A stretch of DNA of 48,872 nt from Clostridia bacterium (GTDB lineage Bacteria; Bacillota; Clostridia; Oscillospirales; Acutalibacteraceae), in NCBI GenBank assembly GCA_017465505.1, contig JAFTWB010000010.1, forward strand, positions 1 through 48,872, written 5' to 3'. Positions 1 to 43,853 of the stretch are shown one piece after another; position 1 is the first letter of the stretch; the number at the start of each line of letters is the position of its first letter. The notes under the pieces were generated by a model, which was given only the letters and a program-made list of their open reading frames with translations, did no database searches and was not told where the DNA came from. The translations under genes were made by a program, and so were the position numbers.

Positions 1-168
1 GTACCCATCCGGAAAGGTTTAGTTTAGCAGAAAGTTTGCTCGGACGATTCTTGAATCGTCCCTACAATAGACGTTGATTAAATTTTTAATCCCGCCGTTA
101 ATCATAGGTTCAATTTATATCTAACCTGTCAGAAGGCGGAATCGCCCTGCCGTGGCAAACCCGTGGCG
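1..168. repeat. Dispersed intergenic repeat, copy 1
   Basis: The first ~110 bases match 9964-10073 with a single mismatch, and similarity continues, less exactly, to about 160. The copy contains the mini-palindrome GATTCTTGAATC, the segment CCCGCCGTTAATCATAGG, and AAGGCGGAATCGCCC followed by CGTGGC. Shorter relatives occur at 264-355, 18195-18262, 29161-29275, 33433-33515 and 39594-39625. No coding ORF is supported. It could be a MITE-like or REP-like element; no transposase is nearby. Confidence 0.85.
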
Positions 169-173
169 AGGGG

Positions 174-252
174 TAGTGATATTCGCCTGCGGCGAGTGGT
201 ATTGGCATTTGCCAGTGGTATTGCTTCGCAGTGGTATTGTCCTTACGGACAG
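174..252 (+). repeat. Mini-hairpin array, AGTGGTAT linker family
   Basis: Four short stem-loops are separated by AGTGGTAT or a close variant. The stems are TCGCC/GGCGA, TGGCA/TGCCA, TGC/GCA and TGTCC/GGACA, with 3-4 base loops. Linkers are constant while stems differ, and pairing is kept in each. A related but longer array lies at 24331-24490. The array sits between two dispersed-repeat segments, downstream of the minus-strand tetR gene. Confidence 0.8.
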
Positions 253-8653: not shown

Positions 8654-9682
8654 ATGAATATGAATTTTATCCGCAAACTGCCCATTCCAAAGGATGTTAA
8701 GGAGCAGTTTCCTCTATCTGCCGATTTAGCAAAAATCAAAAAGGACAGAGATATTGAAATCAAGAAAATCTTCACAGGGGAAAGCAACAAGTTTTTGCTT
8801 GTTATCGGCCCTTGCTCTGCTGACCGAGAGGACGCCGTTATGGAGTATATCTCCAGACTGAGAGGTTTGCAGGAAAAGGTAGAGGACAAAATCTTTATCA
8901 TACCCCGAATTTATACAGGTAAGCCTCGTACAACAGGTGCAGGCTACAAGGGCCTTTTGCACCAGCCCGACCCTAATGAGAAGCCCGACCTTTTCAAAGG
9001 AATTGTGGCAATCCGTGAGCTTCATATGAGAGCTTTGAGAGAAACAGGCTTTACCTGTGCCGACGAAATGCTTTACCCTGAAAATCACCGTTATCTTTCG
9101 GATATTATTGCTTATGTTGCAGTTGGTGCAAGAAGTGTTGAGAATCAGCAGCACCGCCTTACCGCTTCGGGCCTTGAGGTGCCTGTGGGTATGAAAAACC
9201 CCACATCAGGCGACCTTACGGTTATGATGAACTCCATTACTGCGGCTCAGAGTGCTCACACCTTTATTTACCGCGGCTGGGAAGCTCAGTCTGAGGGCAA
9301 TCCCCTTGCTCACGCAATCCTCAGAGGCTATGTAAACAAGCACGGTCAGTGCCAGCCTAATTACCATTACGAGGATTTGATTCTCACTTCCGAAATGTAT
9401 CAGAAGCACGGACTTAAGAATCCTGCGGTTATTGTGGACACAAACCACGCCAACTCCAACAAGCAGTACCTTGAGCAGATAAGAATCGCCAAAGAGGTGC
9501 TTTACAGCAAGCGTCACAACGCAGACATCGGCAAAATGGTAAAGGGTCTGATGATTGAAAGCTACCTTGAGGACGGCACTCAGAAAATCGGCGACTGCAT
9601 TTACGGCAAGTCTATTACTGACCCCTGTCTGGGCTGGGAAAAGACAGAGCGTCTTGTGCTGGATATTGCAGAGTATCTGTGA
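8654..9682 (+). CDS. aroF: DAHP synthase, class I (AroG/AroF/AroH type)
   Basis: The 342-residue protein condenses PEP and erythrose-4-phosphate in the first shikimate step. It carries VIGPCSADRED, PRIYTGKPRTTGAGYKG, the SVENQQHR segment, GMKNPTSGDL and VDTNHANSNKQ, matching the E. coli-type class I enzymes. The letter F, G or H cannot be decided from sequence. A weak terminator follows at 9709-9742. Placing the entry enzyme last in the operon is unremarkable but means its expression depends on full-length transcription. Confidence 0.93.
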   Translation: MNMNFIRKLPIPKDVKEQFPLSADLAKIKKDRDIEIKKIFTGESNKFLLVIGPCSADREDAVMEYISRLRGLQEKVEDKIFIIPRIYTGKPRTTGAGYKGLLHQPDPNEKPDLFKGIVAIRELHMRALRETGFTCADEMLYPENHRYLSDIIAYVAVGARSVENQQHRLTASGLEVPVGMKNPTSGDLTVMMNSITAAQSAHTFIYRGWEAQSEGNPLAHAILRGYVNKHGQCQPNYHYEDLILTSEMYQKHGLKNPAVIVDTNHANSNKQYLEQIRIAKEVLYSKRHNADIGKMVKGLMIESYLEDGTQKIGDCIYGKSITDPCLGWEKTERLVLDIAEYL

Positions 9683-9765: not shown

Positions 9766-9924
9766 TTGTGCCTTGCACAAAGTGAATAGATGGAATATCC
9801 GACCTTTGGTCGGAGCGATATATTGACTTCGTCAATTCGATATATTTGCTATGCAAATGCGATATACTGCAAGCAGTGCGATATGTTTGCTTACGCAAAC
9901 GTTAATGTGGCACGCTTTGCGTGC
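9766..9924 (+). repeat. Mini-hairpin array, GCGATAT linker family
   Basis: Stem-loops in order are TTGTG/CACAA, CCGACC/GGTCGG, TTGAC/GTCAA, ATTTGC/GCAAAT, CTGC/GCAG, GTTTGC/GCAAAC, separated by CGATAT or GCGATAT. The cap hairpin GCACGC-TTT-GCGTGC ends the array (9910-9924). A near-copy lies at 28971-29137 and differs mainly in loops, for example GCTATGC against GCTCACGC. The ORF readable through it (9790-9990) is not a gene. Confidence 0.85.
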
Positions 9925-9963: not shown

Positions 9964-10140
9964 GTACCCATCCGGAAAGGTTTAGTTTAGCAGAAAGTTT
10001 GCTCGGACGATTCTTGAATCGTCCCTACAATAGACGTTGATTAAATTTTTAACCCCGCCGTTAATCATAGGTTTAATTTATATCAAACCTTTCCAAAGGC
10101 GGAATCGCCCTCGGGTGGCTAACCCGTGGCTAACGACTGG
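9964..10140 (+). repeat. Dispersed intergenic repeat, copy 2
   Basis: This is a near-identical direct copy of 1-168, following the hairpin array and an AT-rich spacer. The right end (GTGGCTAACGACTGG) lies about 20 bases before the asnB -35 box. With copy 1 it brackets the mntP-tetR and aromatic genes. Confidence 0.85.
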
Positions 10141-18283: not shown

Positions 18284-18407
18284 TGCACGCACAGCGTGCC
18301 ACCGCAATGTTTGCAAAGCAAACACATCATTTTGCGTCAGCAAAACATCATTAGCCGTGCTACATCATTTCGCCAAAGGCGAAACATCATTCCCACCATC
18401 GGTGAAA
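18284..18407 (-). repeat. Mini-hairpin array, ATGATGT linker family (inverted)
   Basis: Linkers read ACATCAT on the plus strand. Stems include GCACGC/GCGTGC (the cap), GTTTGC/GCAAAC, TTTTGC/GCAAAA, TTTCGCC/GGCGAAA and ACC/GGT-type arms. The array is the reverse orientation of 33245-33375. The rest of the gap up to 18686 has the terminator at 18435, then about 150 bases with a weak promoter and no supported ORF. Confidence 0.85.
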
Positions 18408-18434
18408 TTAAAAGTAAATATTAAACTGACAGCA

Positions 18435-20878: not shown

Positions 20879-20927
20879 ATAATTGACTTTAAGATGAAAT
20901 TTTTCAAACTTGAAAGGAGTTTTTACA

Positions 20928-22349
20928 ATGGGACTTATTAAAGCAGGCGTAGGCGCCGTAGGTTCAGTAATGGCTGACCAGTGGAAAGAATATTTCTACT
21001 GTGACGCTATGGGTTTTGACGTTCTCGTCAAAAAGGCTGACAAACGTGTCAGCGGACGTTCTTCAAACACAAAGGGCAGTGATAACATTATCTCCAACGG
21101 CTCTGTTATTGCTGTTGCAGACAAACAGTGTATGATTATCGTTGACCAGGGTAAGGTTGTTGAGATTTGTGCAGAGCCCGGCGAGTTTGTATGGGATGCT
21201 TCCACAGAGCCCTCTCTTTTTACAGGTAAGCTGAGCAAGAGTATTCTTGATACCTTCAAGGCTATCGGCAAGCGTTTCACCTTTGGCGGCGACACAGGTA
21301 AGGACCAGAGAGTTTACTACATAAACACAAGAGAGATTCAGGACAACAAGTTCGGTACTCCCAACCCCATTCCCTTCAGGGTTGTTGACTCCAAGATTGA
21401 CCTTGATGTAGACGTAAGCCTTCGCTGCTCAGGTATTTATTCTTATCAGATTGAAGACCCCATTCTCTTCTACACAAACGTAAGCGGTAACGTTACTGAT
21501 GAATTTACAAGAGCTGAGATTGACCATCAGCTCAAGACAGAGTTCTTAAGTGCTCTTGCACCTTCTTTCTCAAGAATTTCTGCTCTTGAAATCAGACCTA
21601 ACGAAATCCCTGCTCATATGCCCGAAATGGAAGCAGCAGTAAACGACGCTCTTAAGGCAAAGTGGCTTGAGCTCAGAGGCTTAAAGGTTGTTTCTGTTGC
21701 TATGAACGTTCCCATTATGCCCGAGGAAGACCAGCAGATGCTCAAAGACGCTCAGCGTGAAGCTCGTCTTCGCAATCCCGGTCTTGCCGCTGCTCATATG
21801 GTTGAGGCTCAGGCAGAGGCTATGAAGACTGCTGCAGGTAATCAGGGCGGTGCTATGATGGGCTTTATGGGTATGAATATGGCTCAGGCTGCAGGCGGTA
21901 TGAACGCAGGTAACCTCTTTGCTATGGACCAGCAGAACAGGGCTGCTCAGGCTCAGGCTCAGGCACAGGCTGCTCAGACACAGGCTAATGCAAACGCCTG
22001 GACTTGCGCTTGCGGTGCTACTGCAACAGGTAACTTCTGTCCTCAGTGCGGTGCCAAGAAGCCCGAGGCAAAGCCCGCTTCTTCGTGGACTTGTGCTTGC
22101 GGAGCTACTGCAACAGGCAAATTCTGTCCCGAGTGCGGTGCTAAAAAGCCCGAAGAGCAGAAGGGTTGGACTTGTGCTTGCGGCGAAGTAAACCTTGGCA
22201 AGTTCTGTGCAGAGTGCGGTGCCAAAAAGCCCGAGGGTGCACCCCTTTACAAGTGCGACAAGTGCGGCTGGGAGCCCGAAGACCCCAAGAATCCTCCCAA
22301 GTTCTGCCCTGAGTGCGGCGACATCTTCGACGACTCTGACAAGCAGTAA
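20928..22349 (+). CDS. SPFH-domain protein with tandem C-terminal zinc ribbons (YdjI-like)
   Basis: The 473-residue protein begins MGLIKAGVGAVGSVMADQWK and resembles B. subtilis YdjI (SPFH/flotillin-like, also annotated virion core protein). The SPFH region covers about residues 20-280, followed by a Met/Ala/Gln-rich linker to about 350. Then come three near-identical CxC/CxxC zinc ribbons (WTCACGA...FCPQCGAKKPE type) and a fourth, different one (YKCDKCGW...KFCPECG). It lacks an obvious membrane span and may associate with membrane through partners. ATG 20928 has TGAAAGGAG upstream. First gene of a three-gene operon. Confidence 0.88.
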   Translation: MGLIKAGVGAVGSVMADQWKEYFYCDAMGFDVLVKKADKRVSGRSSNTKGSDNIISNGSVIAVADKQCMIIVDQGKVVEICAEPGEFVWDASTEPSLFTGKLSKSILDTFKAIGKRFTFGGDTGKDQRVYYINTREIQDNKFGTPNPIPFRVVDSKIDLDVDVSLRCSGIYSYQIEDPILFYTNVSGNVTDEFTRAEIDHQLKTEFLSALAPSFSRISALEIRPNEIPAHMPEMEAAVNDALKAKWLELRGLKVVSVAMNVPIMPEEDQQMLKDAQREARLRNPGLAAAHMVEAQAEAMKTAAGNQGGAMMGFMGMNMAQAAGGMNAGNLFAMDQQNRAAQAQAQAQAAQTQANANAWTCACGATATGNFCPQCGAKKPEAKPASSWTCACGATATGKFCPECGAKKPEEQKGWTCACGEVNLGKFCAECGAKKPEGAPLYKCDKCGWEPEDPKNPPKFCPECGDIFDDSDKQ

Positions 22350-24330: not shown

Positions 24331-24490
24331 TATTCGCCTTGCGGCGAGTTATATTGCTACGCAGTGTTATTCGGCTAATGCCGAGTGGTATTGCCTGCGG
24401 CAGTTATAGTGCGAATAAAATACCACTAAAACCAAAGGTTTTAATACCACTTTTGCGAAGCAAAAATACCACTCTGCACAGGGTGCAGAA
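24331..24490. repeat. Two-way mini-hairpin array, AGTGGTAT family
   Basis: The left half reads stems with GTTAT/GTGGTAT linkers; after about 24410 the linkers switch to ATACCAC, the reverse complement, so the two halves face each other. Stems include TTCGCC/GGCGA, CGGC/GCCG, TGCC/GGCA, AACC/GGTT, TTTTGC/GCAAAA and CTGCAC/GTGCAG. The array occupies the TPM gene to the S23-like gene interval. Confidence 0.8.
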
Positions 24491-24525
24491 TAAAACTCAA
24501 AACTAAAAAGACGGTGGTGATAGCT

Positions 24526-25923: not shown

Positions 25924-26020
25924 CGTTGACGAAGTCAACATATCGTGCCTTGGCATATGGGGTGCAAAGCACATATCGCAATTTCAAATGAATTTATATC
26001 GCTGACAATTTATTGTCAGT
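25924..26020 (-). repeat. Mini-hairpin array, GCGATAT family, starting at the galE stop
   Basis: Read on the minus strand: CTGACAAT/ATTGTCAG (the galE stop TGA lies in its first arm), linker CGATAT, AATTCATTTGAAATT, GCGATAT, GTGC/GCAC, CATAT, GCC/GGC, CGATAT, GTTGAC/GTCAAC. The linker sequence matches 9766-9924 and 28971-29137. Confidence 0.85.
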
Positions 26021-27962: not shown

Positions 27963-28970
27963 ATGGCTAAAAAACCTAATCAGAAATTAAAGCTTCTTGT
28001 CCTCAAGGACATACTTATGAAGCACAGCGACGAAAGCCACGGCCTGACCATAAACGAGATTATCGAAAGGCTCTCGGCTTATGATATTTCTGCAGAGAGA
28101 AAGAGCATTTACGACGATTTGCATTTGCTGGAAAGCTACGGGGTGGACATTAACAGCACCAAGGACAAAACCACCCGTTACTACATAGGAAGCAGAGATT
28201 TTGAGCTTCCTGAGCTGAAGCTCTTGGTGGACGCAGTACAAAGCTCAAAGTTTATTACGGAGAAGAAATCCCGTGAGCTTATTAAAAAGGTGGGCTCCCT
28301 TGCCTCTGATTATGATTCGGGCAAGCTTCAGAGGCAGGTTTTTGTTTCAAACCGTGTGAAAAATCCCAACGAGAAAATCTACTATACTGTGGACGCAATT
28401 CACGAGGCTATTTCTTTGCACAGGCAGATTACCTTCTGTTATTACGAGTGGGTCTTAAGCTCTGACAGAGGTGAGAAAATCGTGAAAAGAGCAAGGCACG
28501 GCGGCAAGGTTTATAAGGTTTCGCCTTTTTCTCTTGCCTGGGATGACGAGAATTATTACCTCATCGCCTTTGAAAACGAGAGCCAGAGTATCCGCCATTA
28601 CAGGGTGGACAAAATGGATAAGGTCAAAATCACCGAGGATAAGGTGGAGGGCAAAAAGGCCTTTAAGGGGCTGGATATGGCGACTTATTCCAAAAGCGTT
28701 TTCGGTATGTTCGGCGGTGAGCTGACGGATATTAAAGTCAGGGTGGATAATTCCCTTGTGGGGGTTGTTGCCGACAGATTCGGCAAGGACGTTTTTGTTA
28801 CCAAAGACGGAGAGGAGCACTTTATCTTTACCGCAAAGGTAGTGCCCAGTCCTCAGTTTTACGGCTGGCTCTTTGCTCTCGGCAAAGGTGCAAAGCTTGT
28901 TTCTCCTCAGAGTGCGGTAGAAGAGTTTAAAAGCTATCTTGATGAAGTGTGCAGGATGAATGAGGAGTAA
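27963..28970 (+). CDS. WYL-domain transcriptional regulator
   Basis: The 335-residue protein has an N-terminal winged helix (about 8-65: LKDILMKHSDESHGLTINEI, ERKSIYDDLHLL), a WYL domain (about 150-225, with VSPFSLAWDDENYYLIAF and IRHYRVDKM) and a WCX-like C-terminus. WYL proteins respond to nucleic-acid or nucleotide ligands. No defence or CRISPR genes lie nearby, so its target is unclear. A hairpin array starts at the base after the stop. Confidence 0.9.
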   Translation: MAKKPNQKLKLLVLKDILMKHSDESHGLTINEIIERLSAYDISAERKSIYDDLHLLESYGVDINSTKDKTTRYYIGSRDFELPELKLLVDAVQSSKFITEKKSRELIKKVGSLASDYDSGKLQRQVFVSNRVKNPNEKIYYTVDAIHEAISLHRQITFCYYEWVLSSDRGEKIVKRARHGGKVYKVSPFSLAWDDENYYLIAFENESQSIRHYRVDKMDKVKITEDKVEGKKAFKGLDMATYSKSVFGMFGGELTDIKVRVDNSLVGVVADRFGKDVFVTKDGEEHFIFTAKVVPSPQFYGWLFALGKGAKLVSPQSAVEEFKSYLDEVCRMNEE

Positions 28971-29137
28971 TTGTGCTTCGCACAAAGTGAATAGTGAAGA
29001 AGTGGAACATCCGACCTTTGGTCGGAGCGATATATTGACTTCGTCAATTCGATATATTTGCTCACGCAAATGCGATATACTGCAAGCAGTGCGATATGTT
29101 TGCTTACGCAAACGTTTTGGTGGCACGCTTTGCGTGC
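28971..29137 (+). repeat. Mini-hairpin array, GCGATAT family
   Basis: It begins at the base after the WYL gene stop with TTGTG/CACAA, then CCGACC/GGTCGG, TTGAC/GTCAA, ATTTGC/GCAAAT, CTGC/GCAG, GTTTGC/GCAAAC and cap GCACGC-TTT-GCGTGC. It is almost the same as 9766-9924 except in loops and the first linker. Confidence 0.87.
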
Positions 29138-29160
29138 GATTATAGTTTTTTACCTTTGAC

Positions 29161-29275
29161 ACCGCCGTTGATGAAGGTTTAAAGTTTTATCTTACCTTTC
29201 AAAAGGCGGAACTGCCCACCGTGGCTAACGGTCAAAAGGTGGAATCGCCCTGCCGTGGCTAACGGCTGTACTGAT
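29161..29275 (+). repeat. Dispersed intergenic repeat
   Basis: ACCGCCGTTGATGAAGG is followed by ACCTTTCAAAAGGCGGAACTG and CGTGGCTAACGG, then a second AAAAGGTGGAATCGCCC with CGTGGCTAACGG. Only a short spacer separates it from the hairpin array, and the next gene's promoter region begins just after it. It has no ORF. Confidence 0.8.
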
Positions 29276-32707: not shown

Positions 32708-33274
32708 ATGATAATTGAACAGCTTGACTCCTCAAGGGTGCTCATAAGCCTGAATCTTTCGGATATGGACACCTTTGAGATGAGTGTGGATAAACTGAAT
32801 ATGCGTGAAAACAAGTGCAAGGAAAAGCTCAAGGAGCTTCTGACTCTTGCCTTTGACAAATTTTCCATAAGCACGGAGAAAAAGGCGGTGCTTGTGGAGG
32901 CTATGCCTCATAAAGAGGGGCTGCTGATAATGGCACAGGTGGATGTTATGAGGGCGTTTCGCAAGGTTTACCGAATTAAAAAGCCGCCTATGCTGCCTTG
33001 TTGCAGATTTTCAGGTGCGGAGAATCTGCTTGCCTGTATGCAGAGGCTGAAGAGCTTTTGCAAAGCAATGGGTGCAAATTCGTTGTGGCTTTATAAAGGG
33101 CAGTACTACCTGATTTTTGAGCAAGGGCTTATGCCAAAGGGTGCACTGGAGGTGCTGGGGGAGTACTCGAATTGCAGTAGTGTGGGACTGATAAAAATCG
33201 CAAGAATAAAAGAAGCAGGCAAGGAGCTGGCAAAGGGAAACGCGGCGATGTGCATTTGCAAGCAAATGCAATGA
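32708..33274 (+). CDS. MecA-like adaptor protein
   Basis: The 188-residue protein opens MIIEQLDSSRVLISLNLSDM, resembling the N-terminal domain of MecA adaptors, which feed substrates to ClpC; the middle is a linker and the C-terminal half could be the ClpC-binding domain. Similarity is moderate, so the call is tentative. ATG 32708 is preceded by AAAGGA and fits the promoter. The last residues (MCICKQMQ) are encoded by the first hairpin of the repeat array (33251-33270), so the natural C-terminus has been replaced or extended by repeat DNA. Confidence 0.65.
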   Translation: MIIEQLDSSRVLISLNLSDMDTFEMSVDKLNMRENKCKEKLKELLTLAFDKFSISTEKKAVLVEAMPHKEGLLIMAQVDVMRAFRKVYRIKKPPMLPCCRFSGAENLLACMQRLKSFCKAMGANSLWLYKGQYYLIFEQGLMPKGALEVLGEYSNCSSVGLIKIARIKEAGKELAKGNAAMCICKQMQ

Positions 33275-33375
33275 TGTTTTGCGTTGCAAAATGATGTCGC
33301 ACGGCTAATGATGTATGCTACGCAAATGATGTGTTTGTGTAAACACAAACATTGCGGTGGCACGCTTTGCGTGCA
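33245..33375 (+). repeat. Mini-hairpin array, ATGATGT linker family
   Basis: It begins in the MecA-like coding end with a perfect 9-base stem TGCATTTGC/GCAAATGCA (33251-33270), then linkers AATGATGT, stems TTTTGC/GCAAAA, GC/GC-type arms, TTTGC/GCAAA, GTTTGTG/CACAAAC, and the cap GCACGC-TTT-GCGTGC (33360-33374). Confidence 0.85.
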
Positions 33376-33432
33376 ATCCTATTTTATTTAATATAAATCG
33401 GAGCGACCCGAAATTTTCAACTTTGTTATTTT

Positions 33433-33515
33433 CCCGCCGTTAATCATAGGTTCTATTTATATCTAACCTTTCAAAAGGCGGAACTGCCCTCGGGTGGCTA
33501 ATGGTTGGTCATTTT
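33433..33515 (+). repeat. Dispersed intergenic repeat
   Basis: CCCGCCGTTAATCATAGG, AACCTTTCAAAAGGCGGAACTG and GGGTGGCTAATGG in the same order as other copies. The right end stops about 35 bases before the promoter of the PucR-type gene. Confidence 0.8.
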
Positions 33516-39906: not shown

Positions 39907-40002
39907 CCCACGCAAAGCGTGGCACCACAATGTTTGTGTTTACACAAACACATCATTTGCCCACAGGCAAACATCATTGCAATATCGCCAAAACGATATT
40001 GC
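39907..40002 (-). repeat. Mini-hairpin array, ATGATGT family, in the lysS leader
   Basis: Linkers read ACATCAT. Stems in order: CACGC/GCGTG (the cap), GTTTGTG/CACAAAC, TTTGCC/GGCAAA and the 9-base stem GCAATATCG/CGATATTGC (39979-40002). The last stem ends 2 bases before the lysS ribosome site GGGAGGA. Confidence 0.8.
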
Positions 40003-40018
40003 CCAGGGAGGAATAAAA

Positions 40019-41760: not shown

Positions 41761-43152
41761 ATGATGAACAGTTTAGCGAGTGTGCATCCCGAACTTATAT
41801 CGGAATGGTCAGATAAAAACTATCCTATTACACCTGACAACATTACATTTGGTTCAAATAAGAATGTTTGGTGGAAAGGTTCATGTGGTCACGAGTGGCA
41901 AGCCAGTGTGAAAAGTCGATCATCCGGAGAGAAATGTCCTATCTGTTCAGGCAAAAGAGTTGTTAAGGGCATTAATGATTTAGCAACCTTAAAGCCTGAG
42001 CTTGTTAAAGAGTGGTCAGATAAGAATATATTGAAGCCTACAGAGGTATCAATTGGCTCCCATAAGAAGATAATTTGGAAATGTAAGCTTGGTCACGAGT
42101 GGGAGGCTAGTGTTAAAAGCCGAGCTATAAATCATACAGGGTGTCCGTATTGTTCTAACAATAAGGTTCTTATTGGATTTAATGATCTTGCATCACAATT
42201 CCCAAAAGTAGCAGCTGAATGGTCTGAAAGGAACTATCCTTTAAAGCCGACAATGGTTACAGCTTATTCTAATCAGAAAGTTTGGTGGAAGTGTAGTAAA
42301 GGTCATGAATGGTATGCTTTAATACCAACTCGTTCTAATGGAAGTAAATGTCCATATTGCAATGGGCATATATTATTAAAAGGTTTTAATGACCTTGCAA
42401 CTACTCACCCTGAATTAGTAGAAGAATGGTCAGATAGGAATTTGCCATTAACATCAGATATGATAAATGAGAAATCACGCAAAAATGTTTGGTGGAAATG
42501 CAAGGAGTGTGGACACGAGTGGAAATCTGTTGTAGCTTCACGAATAAAAGGCACTACTTGTCCTGTATGTTCGGATAGAAAAGTTCTCACAGGATATAAT
42601 GATTTAGCAACCACAGACAAGTATTTGTTAAGCGAATGGGATTATGAATTGAATAAGGAAGTTTTACCGACAAAAATATCAAGAAACTCAATGAGAAGTG
42701 TATGGTGGAGGTGTTCTAACGGACATTCTTGGAAAGCGAAAATATATGAGCGTACTATTGAGGAGAAAGGCTGTGTTATTTGCGAAGATGAGTATCGAAG
42801 TGTATTTCCGCAGTTAATCATCGGTTTTTATACTCGTATGAAAGGTCTAAACACTTTACTTAATTATGATAAGGTTATCGGTATTCCTCTTGAAACATAT
42901 GTACCTGAAGAAAATTTAGCAATAGAATCTGCTAATGGTACTGATGATATAGAGAGAGTTAAAGAGCATCTGTGTAAGGCAAGGGGTATAAATCTAACAA
43001 AACTCCTATATAAACCTAAAGATACTGAGATAGAGTATGCATTGAGGTTAAAGCAGGTATTTAGGAATAAACATATATTTATATCCTCTGATGTAAATGA
43101 GGATGTAGCTTTTATAAGAAGAAAGTTTTTTGAATGGAGAAAATCACAATAA
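41761..43152 (+). CDS. Zinc-ribbon-repeat protein (DUF4379) with nuclease-like tail
   Basis: The 463-residue protein has five tandem ~65-residue units, each with NDLA...P.L..EWS, then VWWKC..GHEW and a CP.C pair, the pattern of the DUF4379 probable zinc-ribbon family. Residues about 365-420 (IGIPLETYVPEENLAIESAN, then RVKEHLCKARGINLTKLLY) align by eye with the PD-(D/E)xK/Vsr-like core seen in related proteins, with Glu in place of the first Asp. Catalytic activity is therefore uncertain. AT-rich codon use differs from lysS. Start ATG 41761 has AAGGAG. It may act on DNA of mobile elements. Confidence 0.8.
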   Translation: MMNSLASVHPELISEWSDKNYPITPDNITFGSNKNVWWKGSCGHEWQASVKSRSSGEKCPICSGKRVVKGINDLATLKPELVKEWSDKNILKPTEVSIGSHKKIIWKCKLGHEWEASVKSRAINHTGCPYCSNNKVLIGFNDLASQFPKVAAEWSERNYPLKPTMVTAYSNQKVWWKCSKGHEWYALIPTRSNGSKCPYCNGHILLKGFNDLATTHPELVEEWSDRNLPLTSDMINEKSRKNVWWKCKECGHEWKSVVASRIKGTTCPVCSDRKVLTGYNDLATTDKYLLSEWDYELNKEVLPTKISRNSMRSVWWRCSNGHSWKAKIYERTIEEKGCVICEDEYRSVFPQLIIGFYTRMKGLNTLLNYDKVIGIPLETYVPEENLAIESANGTDDIERVKEHLCKARGINLTKLLYKPKDTEIEYALRLKQVFRNKHIFISSDVNEDVAFIRRKFFEWRKSQ

Positions 43153-43439: not shown

Positions 43440-43853
43440 TTGGGTATAGGTGAAAGGGTTAATTTCAAAACAAATCGAAAACAATCATTTCACGGACCTT
43501 GAAAATTGAATATCATTTCTTCAAGTACATTACTTGTGTAAGCAGAAATGCAAAGCTACTACAGCGGTACGCCAAGACCAACTAAGTAAGTTGTTAGCGA
43601 TAACTCCGTCTGTGATTATTGGGTTGCTTCCGATATGGCGATGACCTGCACAAGGGATAATGATACTTCTCTACGGAGCTGTCGGAGAACCCGACAGAGG
43701 TTAATGTCCTATGAACCTGATAGCAGACAGGTGCTTGAAGAACTTCCCGTAAAAGCCGAAAGGCTTGCCGCAGGGGTGTCGAGGACAAATATTGCGGAAA
43801 GTTACATAGCCGTTTTACAGTGCGGCTGTGAATAAACTGAAAGGAGGATTTTT
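43440..43853 (+). ncRNA. Probable structured leader RNA upstream of parA
   Basis: No gene is supported in this ~410-base stretch. It holds several well-formed stems: CTGTCGG/CCGACAG, AAGCC-GAAA-GGCTT (a GNRA tetraloop), and CAACT/AGTTG. The 66-codon ORF at 43635 lacks a ribosome site. The density of stems and the position before parA suggest a structured leader or element-encoded RNA. No known family is claimed. Confidence 0.4.

Follow-up and report, generated by a model that had tools for sequence, protein, structure and literature searches.

Arrays of mini-hairpins with a constant seven-nucleotide linker in a Clostridia genome: probable dispersed intergenic repeats related to Gut-1

The stretch of DNA analysed here (the window, 48,872 nucleotides) is contig C5 of a draft genome of 1.9 Mb with a completeness of 84%. 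The original prediction had named eight intergenic arrays built on one plan, and all eight places were seen to hold oriented strings of short hairpins with a fixed 7-nt linker between them. The arrays at 174, 9766, 28971 and 33245 read on the plus strand and those at 18284, 25924 and 39907 on the minus strand, while 24331 is a plus array followed by a minus array. The array at 9766-9924 (plus strand, linker type GCGATAT), downstream of a DAHP synthase gene (8654-9682, PF00793), holds seven hairpins, four of which are bounded or followed by the linkers (9815-9821, 9837-9843, 9859-9865 and 9878-9884). It opens with TTGTGC-CTT-GCACAA (9766-9780) and CCGACC-TTT-GGTCGG (9799-9813), continues with four hairpins split by GCGATAT or TCGATAT, namely ATTGAC-TTC-GTCAAT (9822-9836), ATTTGC-TAT-GCAAAT (9844-9858), ACTGC-AA-GCAGT (9866-9877) and GTTTGC-TTAC-GCAAAC (9885-9900), and its 3' part reads GTTAATGTG before the terminal hairpin GCACGC-TTT-GCGTGC (9910-9924).

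A second copy of this GCGATAT array (28971-29137, plus strand), directly after an ORF at 27963-28970, is 90% identical to the first, and stems are alike with differing loops, as had been noted from the sequence; the hairpin at 9844-9858, for example, stands against ATTTGC-TCAC-GCAAAT. GCGATAT linkers also separate the hairpins at 25924-26020 (minus strand). Arrays with ATGATGT linkers (type A) and a terminal hairpin lie at 18284-18410 (minus strand) and 33245-33375 (plus strand), and a short, partly degenerate array at 39907-40003 (minus strand), its canonical linkers down to two, both ATGATGT, retains the terminal hairpin. The array cited as 174 spans 134-245 (plus strand) with GTGATAT/GTGGTAT linkers, and the two arrays facing each other at 24331-24500 use GTGGTAT-type linkers and relatives (24420-24471).

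These linkers are far more frequent in the window than in dinucleotide shuffles, with GCGATAT found 20 times against 2.6 expected, ATGATGT 16 against 4.6 and AGTGGTAT 8 against 0.9, the observed number being reached in 0 of 100 shuffles. An automatic caller (a 6-mer occurring three times or more, every interval containing a hairpin of at least 4 bp) returned seven places against a mean of 0.07 in 60 shuffles; two of the seven (22818 and 26106) lie inside long reading frames without a linker of the array family, and the arrays at 174, 33245 and 39907 were overlooked. Array calls in dinucleotide-shuffled loci numbered 0 (one shuffle each of 116 and of 113 loci). CRISPR arrays have repeats of about 23-47 bp and unrelated, non-palindromic spacers; the present arrays have a constant part of 7 nt and palindromic spacers.

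Across loci, the linkers GTGAAAT, ATGAAAT, GTGAAGT, GTGATAT, ATGATAT, ATGATGT, GCGATAT, TCGATAT and GTGGTAT approximate to NYGRWRT, a consensus that is partly built in because the tallying caller requires such a core. The repeated-6-mer caller, which requires no core and whose output was filtered by eye for the same cores, also gave a few other linkers, such as ATGAATTG, in other genomes. The three linker families originally distinguished all exceed the shuffles, but they are variants of this one consensus. Linker spacing peaks at 22 bp and mostly falls anywhere in 18-27 bp, which is too broad for helical phasing, an idea that we rejected.

Matching places are numerous in the window's own genome, 28 for the 9766 array and 36 for the 18284 array, many of them partial and some common to both. 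The ATGATGT-type copies have slot-specific hairpins (TTCGCC..GGCGAA, TTTGC..GCAAA, GTTTG..CAAAC) and share a terminal hairpin, and contigs C21 and C18 show that arrays of the ATGATGT and GCGATAT types can follow one another in a chain. Pairing had been said to be maintained despite sequence change, with a test for compensatory changes proposed as a check, and this test bears the statement out. An alignment of 18 of the 21 type-A arrays extracted from the own genome (L040, L041 and L046 were dropped before counting) contains 34 cells changed on both sides, compared with 14.4 +- 3.1 in shuffles, none of 500 reaching the observed number; sliding the partners gave no more than 13. Likewise, in 35 cross-species segments (81 candidates, of which 36 were kept as dissimilar and 35 aligned), both sides have changed in 122 of 350 cells, where shuffles give 28. 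The terminal hairpin of the own-genome copies is paired in 108 of 108 cells, with none broken, and two of its pairs each occur in two forms (C-G/G-C and C-G/T-A) in all four combinations. Unpaired cells make up 10.7% of the 580 in this alignment, a fraction due in part to misalignment, and 13 of 18 copies have one particular pair of the second hairpin broken.

Wobble pairs number 12 cells in the own-genome alignment, by our count, and one in the cross-species alignment. Because the hairpins of the latter were picked by Watson-Crick stems, more weight falls on a pairing-blind set of 475 linker intervals from 113 loci, taken irrespective of pairing. Those intervals with at least 5 bp contain 2282 pairs, of which 17 are G-T and 12 A-C on the linker strand; if the structure were maintained on one strand, G-T should be tolerated more readily than A-C, and no clear excess was seen. 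The 121 intervals with less than 5 bp mostly resemble shorter hairpins in the examples listed (40 shown).

The same pattern is visible at a single site, where two related genomes with flanks 82-91% identical share a six-hairpin array. Its GATAT linker cores are unchanged and its loops differ; both arms have changed in hairpin 1 (T-A to C-G) and hairpin 6 (C-G to T-A), hairpin 5 is a new stem, and one hairpin in G528 has a broken pair by our reading. A second site common to two related genomes gives the same picture. Concerted evolution of the terminal hairpin, considered from two loci each in G528 and G529, was dropped because paired variants are mixed between the two genomes in a wider listing.

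The hairpin tips are strongly asymmetric between strands. On the linker strand the loop-closing pair is C-G in 303 of 354 hairpins, and loops are TNC in 125 of 215 triloops and TNNC in 66 of 86 tetraloops, equivalent to GNA and GNNA on the opposite strand; the mirror form occurs once among triloops and never among tetraloops. When 197 unique hairpins were considered, 164 of them with loops of 3-4 nt, GNA/GNNA tips opposite the linker strand outnumbered the mirror form by 89 to 1, whereas the two forms were balanced, at 83 to 83, in 875 control hairpins from other parts of these loci. For loops of three and four, the count in a second locus set was 85 to 0. C(GNNA)G tips form stable DNA mini-hairpins. 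Their C(GNA)G counterpart is described as unusually stable as a DNA mini-hairpin in a passage of PMC6479982 that cites Yoshizawa 1997. No TTCG/UUCG tetraloop is present among the 197 unique hairpins, and GNRA accounts for 33 of 66 GNNA loops, i.e. no GNRA preference; in a passage on another motif, PMC2864571 states that UUCG tetraloops stabilise RNA but not DNA. Nearest-neighbour energies of the 197 hairpins favour the same strand with RNA parameters (57 vs 13) and with DNA parameters (62 vs 6), so the tips alone cannot separate DNA from RNA; taken together they are suggestive of DNA, not decisive.

The plan of these arrays was at first thought to match no described family, yet Gut-1 (RF01706) has it and occurs in the same genome. 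Gut-1 was published in 2010 (Weinberg et al.) from the human gut only, as most likely a noncoding RNA according to the Gut-1 passages of PMC2864571, which was the sole paper on Gut-1 that we found; its Rfam entry is filed as 'Gene; sRNA', and its consensus has three hairpins with GUGAAAU linkers. A search of published literature by titles and abstract openings found no description of the present arrays. At gathering cut-offs no Rfam family matched the window at the arrays. In a permissive search, two fetched loci and window positions 134-226 matched Gut-1 at 30-34 bits (cut-off 50), with 134-226 the best in the window (34.2 bits, E 0.0054), and 9766-9924 gave no match at E up to 1. At E<=1e-3 the own genome has 35 Gut-1 matches, and nine exceed the cut-off.

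Strict membership of RF01706 thus fails for the window arrays, whose linkers (GCGATAT, ATGATGT, GTGATAT/GTGGTAT) differ from GUGAAAU and whose scores lie under the cut-off. Like Gut-1, they consist of several short hairpins with free stems and a constant, unpaired 7-nt linker, and have C-G-closed tips with TTC-type loops on the linker strand; related loci carry the intermediate linkers GTGATAT, ATGAAAT and GTGAAGT. Arrays with the Gut-1 linker itself have the same tips (37 vs 0) and closing pair (C-G in 59 of 65). Judged by sequence, the window arrays can be placed as linker variants of a Gut-1-type class, since their linkers fit NYGRWRT approximately and Gut-1-linker arrays share their tips and closing pair. 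Whereas Gut-1 was described, in the passages available from its paper, as a human-gut noncoding RNA, here it appears as one of several linker types among intergenic repeats that are multicopy in an order of Clostridia, giving an orphan Rfam entry a home and a probable meaning.

The proposed search of related genomes found such arrays in relatives. A covariance model (R1) built from the 35 cross-species segments, and hence trained within the order, found matches in 53 of the 197 genomes sampled within the order; a phylum-wide sample of 299 yielded two, again members of the order. Gut-1 matched 25 of 59 genomes in the search of relatives, the own genome included, 18 of them over the cut-off and with up to 48 matches per genome; in the phylum draw it matched 3 of 299 genomes, one of them outside the class, and among 14 named controls an E. 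coli match fell below the cut-off. Owing to stricter search filters and the training of R1 within the order, absence outside the order is not proof. The genome outside the class (G272, another class of the phylum, 75% complete) has two Gut-1 matches on one contig (L318), which may reflect transfer or a misplaced contig. In named genomes an exact gapped pattern found at least 113 stretches. The 80 matches listed come from 47 assemblies, by our count of prefixes, under the titles Clostridia, Clostridiales, Ruminococcus, Ruminococcaceae, Oscillospiraceae and Eubacterium, many being goat, sheep or deer samples by title. Three records labelled viral_contigs hold one array each (L210, L211 and L212), and L210 and L212 have 9.3 kb in common at 99.9%.

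Four loci of one relative (G026), out of those that could be aligned, were compared base by base with the own genome. On contig C24, two own-genome arrays lie between two copies of a second repeat, R2, and in G026 the two R2 copies adjoin with no arrays. The own arrays on C11 and C12 lack a counterpart in G026, which carries R2-like sequence there. Both genomes have an array 3' of the DAHP synthase gene, made of different hairpins, the own array following a separate terminator-like hairpin and the G026 array preceding one (by eye). No clean target-site duplication was seen at the four sites.

R2 is a dispersed palindromic repeat of about 90 nt, CCGCCGTT...AAGGCGGAAtyGCCC, with copies in the window at 85-172, 261-348, 10048-10135, 29155-29264 and 33427-33514. 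It is often followed by a small hairpin around GTGGCTAAC, whose stems are 0-3 bp in the window. R2 flanks several arrays, and in relatives it occupies sites of arrays found here. One R2 copy is included in a 167-bp duplication, 94% identical between window positions 1-167 and 9964-10130.

Relative to genes, as called with a simple caller of our own, the arrays lie preferentially at 3' ends and show no strand preference. The first locus set, the window together with 116 loci, yielded 165 arrays, 50 of which had no gene on one side and hence no orientation; of the others, 34 lie between convergent genes and 5 between divergent genes, 36 are sense and 39 antisense where the two neighbours are co-directional, and 1 is inside an ORF, with convergent and divergent intergenic bases about equal (19.6 and 17.4 kb). 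A broader linker applied to the same loci minus the viral ones gave 32 convergent, 6 divergent, 30 sense and 37 antisense (52 of 161 without orientation, 4 of 161 within ORFs), and the second locus set gave 14, 3, 18 and 12, respectively (39 of 88 without orientation, 2 of 88 within ORFs). In the Gut-1-linker set, 26 of 37 arrays had no orientation. Transposons that move as single strands prefer one replication strand, and the absence of strand bias speaks against insertion into one replication strand.

We consider that these Gut-1-type linker variants are intergenic DNA repeats, dispersed and mosaic, with REP/BIME-like behaviour and a folded strand that mobilising machinery reads, a reading to which we give a probability of roughly 0.55. 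Each element is an oriented string of mini-hairpins with the constant linker, approximately NYGRWRT, between them, and a distinct terminal hairpin often closes it. Conservation lies in the foldback, in the unpaired linker and in the tip, which reads C(GNA)G or C(GNNA)G on the strand that does not carry the GATAT/GAAAT linker; the stem sequence is nearly free. A folded single DNA strand, hairpin plus linker, would be read by copying or mobilising machinery, presumably including a mobilising enzyme; copies would spread and replace each other within a genome, mobility being in trans, and would be tolerated chiefly at gene 3' ends. Copy number, the strand-neutral 3'-end location, the lack of wobble excess and the one-strand tips suggest REP/BIME-like DNA repeats rather than an RNA gene. 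Against this stand the lack of a mobilising enzyme (Y1 transposase being the one family tested, by flanks and co-occurrence) and of a clean target-site duplication, the scores of the window arrays below the Gut-1 cut-off, and some wobble pairs. RNA structures, protein sites and a mobile modular repeat had all been offered for the arrays, and the mobile repeat is the best supported.

The arrays share with REP/BIME elements, as described in PMC3733652, their short palindromes in many copies outside genes, their stems of 6-9 bp with short loops and an adjacent unpaired tag, and their occurrence in clusters and facing pairs. REP/BIME palindromes are tagged GTAG or CGTC according to the same source, in whose available parts no passage on Clostridia or Firmicutes was found; unlike these, the arrays have neither tag in the linker tallies, string four to seven different hairpins in one orientation, and show no link to Y1 transposase. 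BOX-like repeats consist of modules of conserved sequence. The arrays resemble them in being modular, structured, intergenic and without coding capacity, and differ in that just the linker and tip are constant.

That the arrays are noncoding RNAs, as Gut-1 is filed and as its authors thought most likely, or hairpins in 3' UTRs with a role in mRNA-end protection or in binding a protein by way of the linker, seems unlikely to us for the class as a whole. Compensated stem changes and location at gene 3' ends are what such RNAs would show, and one array (L127) lies 3' of a promoter-like sequence (by eye) and may be transcribed. However, linker and tips are strand-specific, and sense and antisense placements are nonetheless balanced (36 vs 39 and 18 vs 12); G-T pairs are no commoner than A-C, UUCG loops are lacking among the unique hairpins, GNRA is not preferred among the GNNA loops, and copies are many per genome. 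An RNA role is possible, certainly for single copies, and is not favoured. The case carries a warning that covariation alone does not make an RNA gene, as it is seen here in repeated palindromes with no preference for a gene strand.

Somewhat less likely again is an origin without function, in which one arm is rewritten from its partner by template switching during replication, keeping the palindromes perfect, and the arrays are what remains of ordinary repeats. Simultaneous change of both arms, the intact terminal hairpin despite its two changed pairs, and the lack of wobble excess agree with it, and stable foldback tips would favour switching. It leaves unexplained one linker consensus over many families of the order, tips on one strand only and the spread of copies, and unpaired changes do occur, as in the second hairpin. 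The original prediction took pairing to be selected. Pairing is indeed kept, but template-switch repair of foldbacks would also keep palindromes perfect, and this repair and selection on the folded strand may both act. Here the foldback is kept and the stem is nearly free, a natural case that could separate selection on single-stranded DNA structure from upkeep by template switching.

Transcription terminators or barriers working in both directions are an improbable identity for the arrays. The preference for 3' ends and convergent pairs and the scarcity in divergent intervals fit this, but merely tolerated insertion would likewise avoid promoters, and the DAHP-synthase locus has its separate terminator-like hairpin beside the array in both genomes. 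Moreover, an intrinsic terminator is a hairpin with an immediate T-run, whereas here linkers without a T-run come next after the hairpins, and only some copies have a T-run about 7 nt downstream of the terminal hairpin. The first hairpin reaches into the end of the upstream gene at L059 (G026, about 1440-1475), L120, L131, L178, L195 and the edge of window array 25924-26020. Examination of 360 edges gave 127 edge hairpins of at least 6 bp, of which 6 extended 3 nt or more into a called gene, among them the first G026 hairpin at the DAHP-synthase locus. Such overlaps may hint at how edge hairpins form or may be old terminators, and copying of a host-gene end is a lead only, as at least two of the six resemble ordinary terminators by eye.

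Least probable of all, and unsupported by flanks or co-occurrence, is that the arrays are true REP sequences mobilised by a Y1 (IS200/RAYT) transposase: short hairpins with a constant unpaired tag, many copies, 3'-end location, head-to-head pairs and two Y1 genes in the own genome would suit it, but Y1 occurs in 25 of 53 array genomes against 48 of 144 others (Fisher p 0.10), is absent from 28 of the 53, including the array-rich G038, and from the relative G026, no GATAT-type array (the type sought there, to the exclusion of Gut-1-type linkers) lies within the fetched flanks of eight Y1 genes in nine loci, and the linkers differ from the GTAG tag of REPs.

Returning to mobile DNA repeats, a broader version is more tentative: Gut-1 and its linker variants together would be an order-wide class of mobile DNA recognised by structure, with free stems and with just the linker and one-strand tip read by a novel enzyme, and the sRNA entry would then represent a single linker type within a DNA repeat, not an RNA gene.

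Elsewhere in the window, a pemK RNA (RF02913) was detected at 43657-43714 (55.6 bits, over the cut-off), and an ORF at 41761-43152 contains five treble-clef zinc-finger stretches (DUF4379, PF14311). Three 68-nt tandem repeats at 21999-22234, cysteine-rich by reading, form part of the 3' portion of a Band-7/SPFH ORF (20910-22349).
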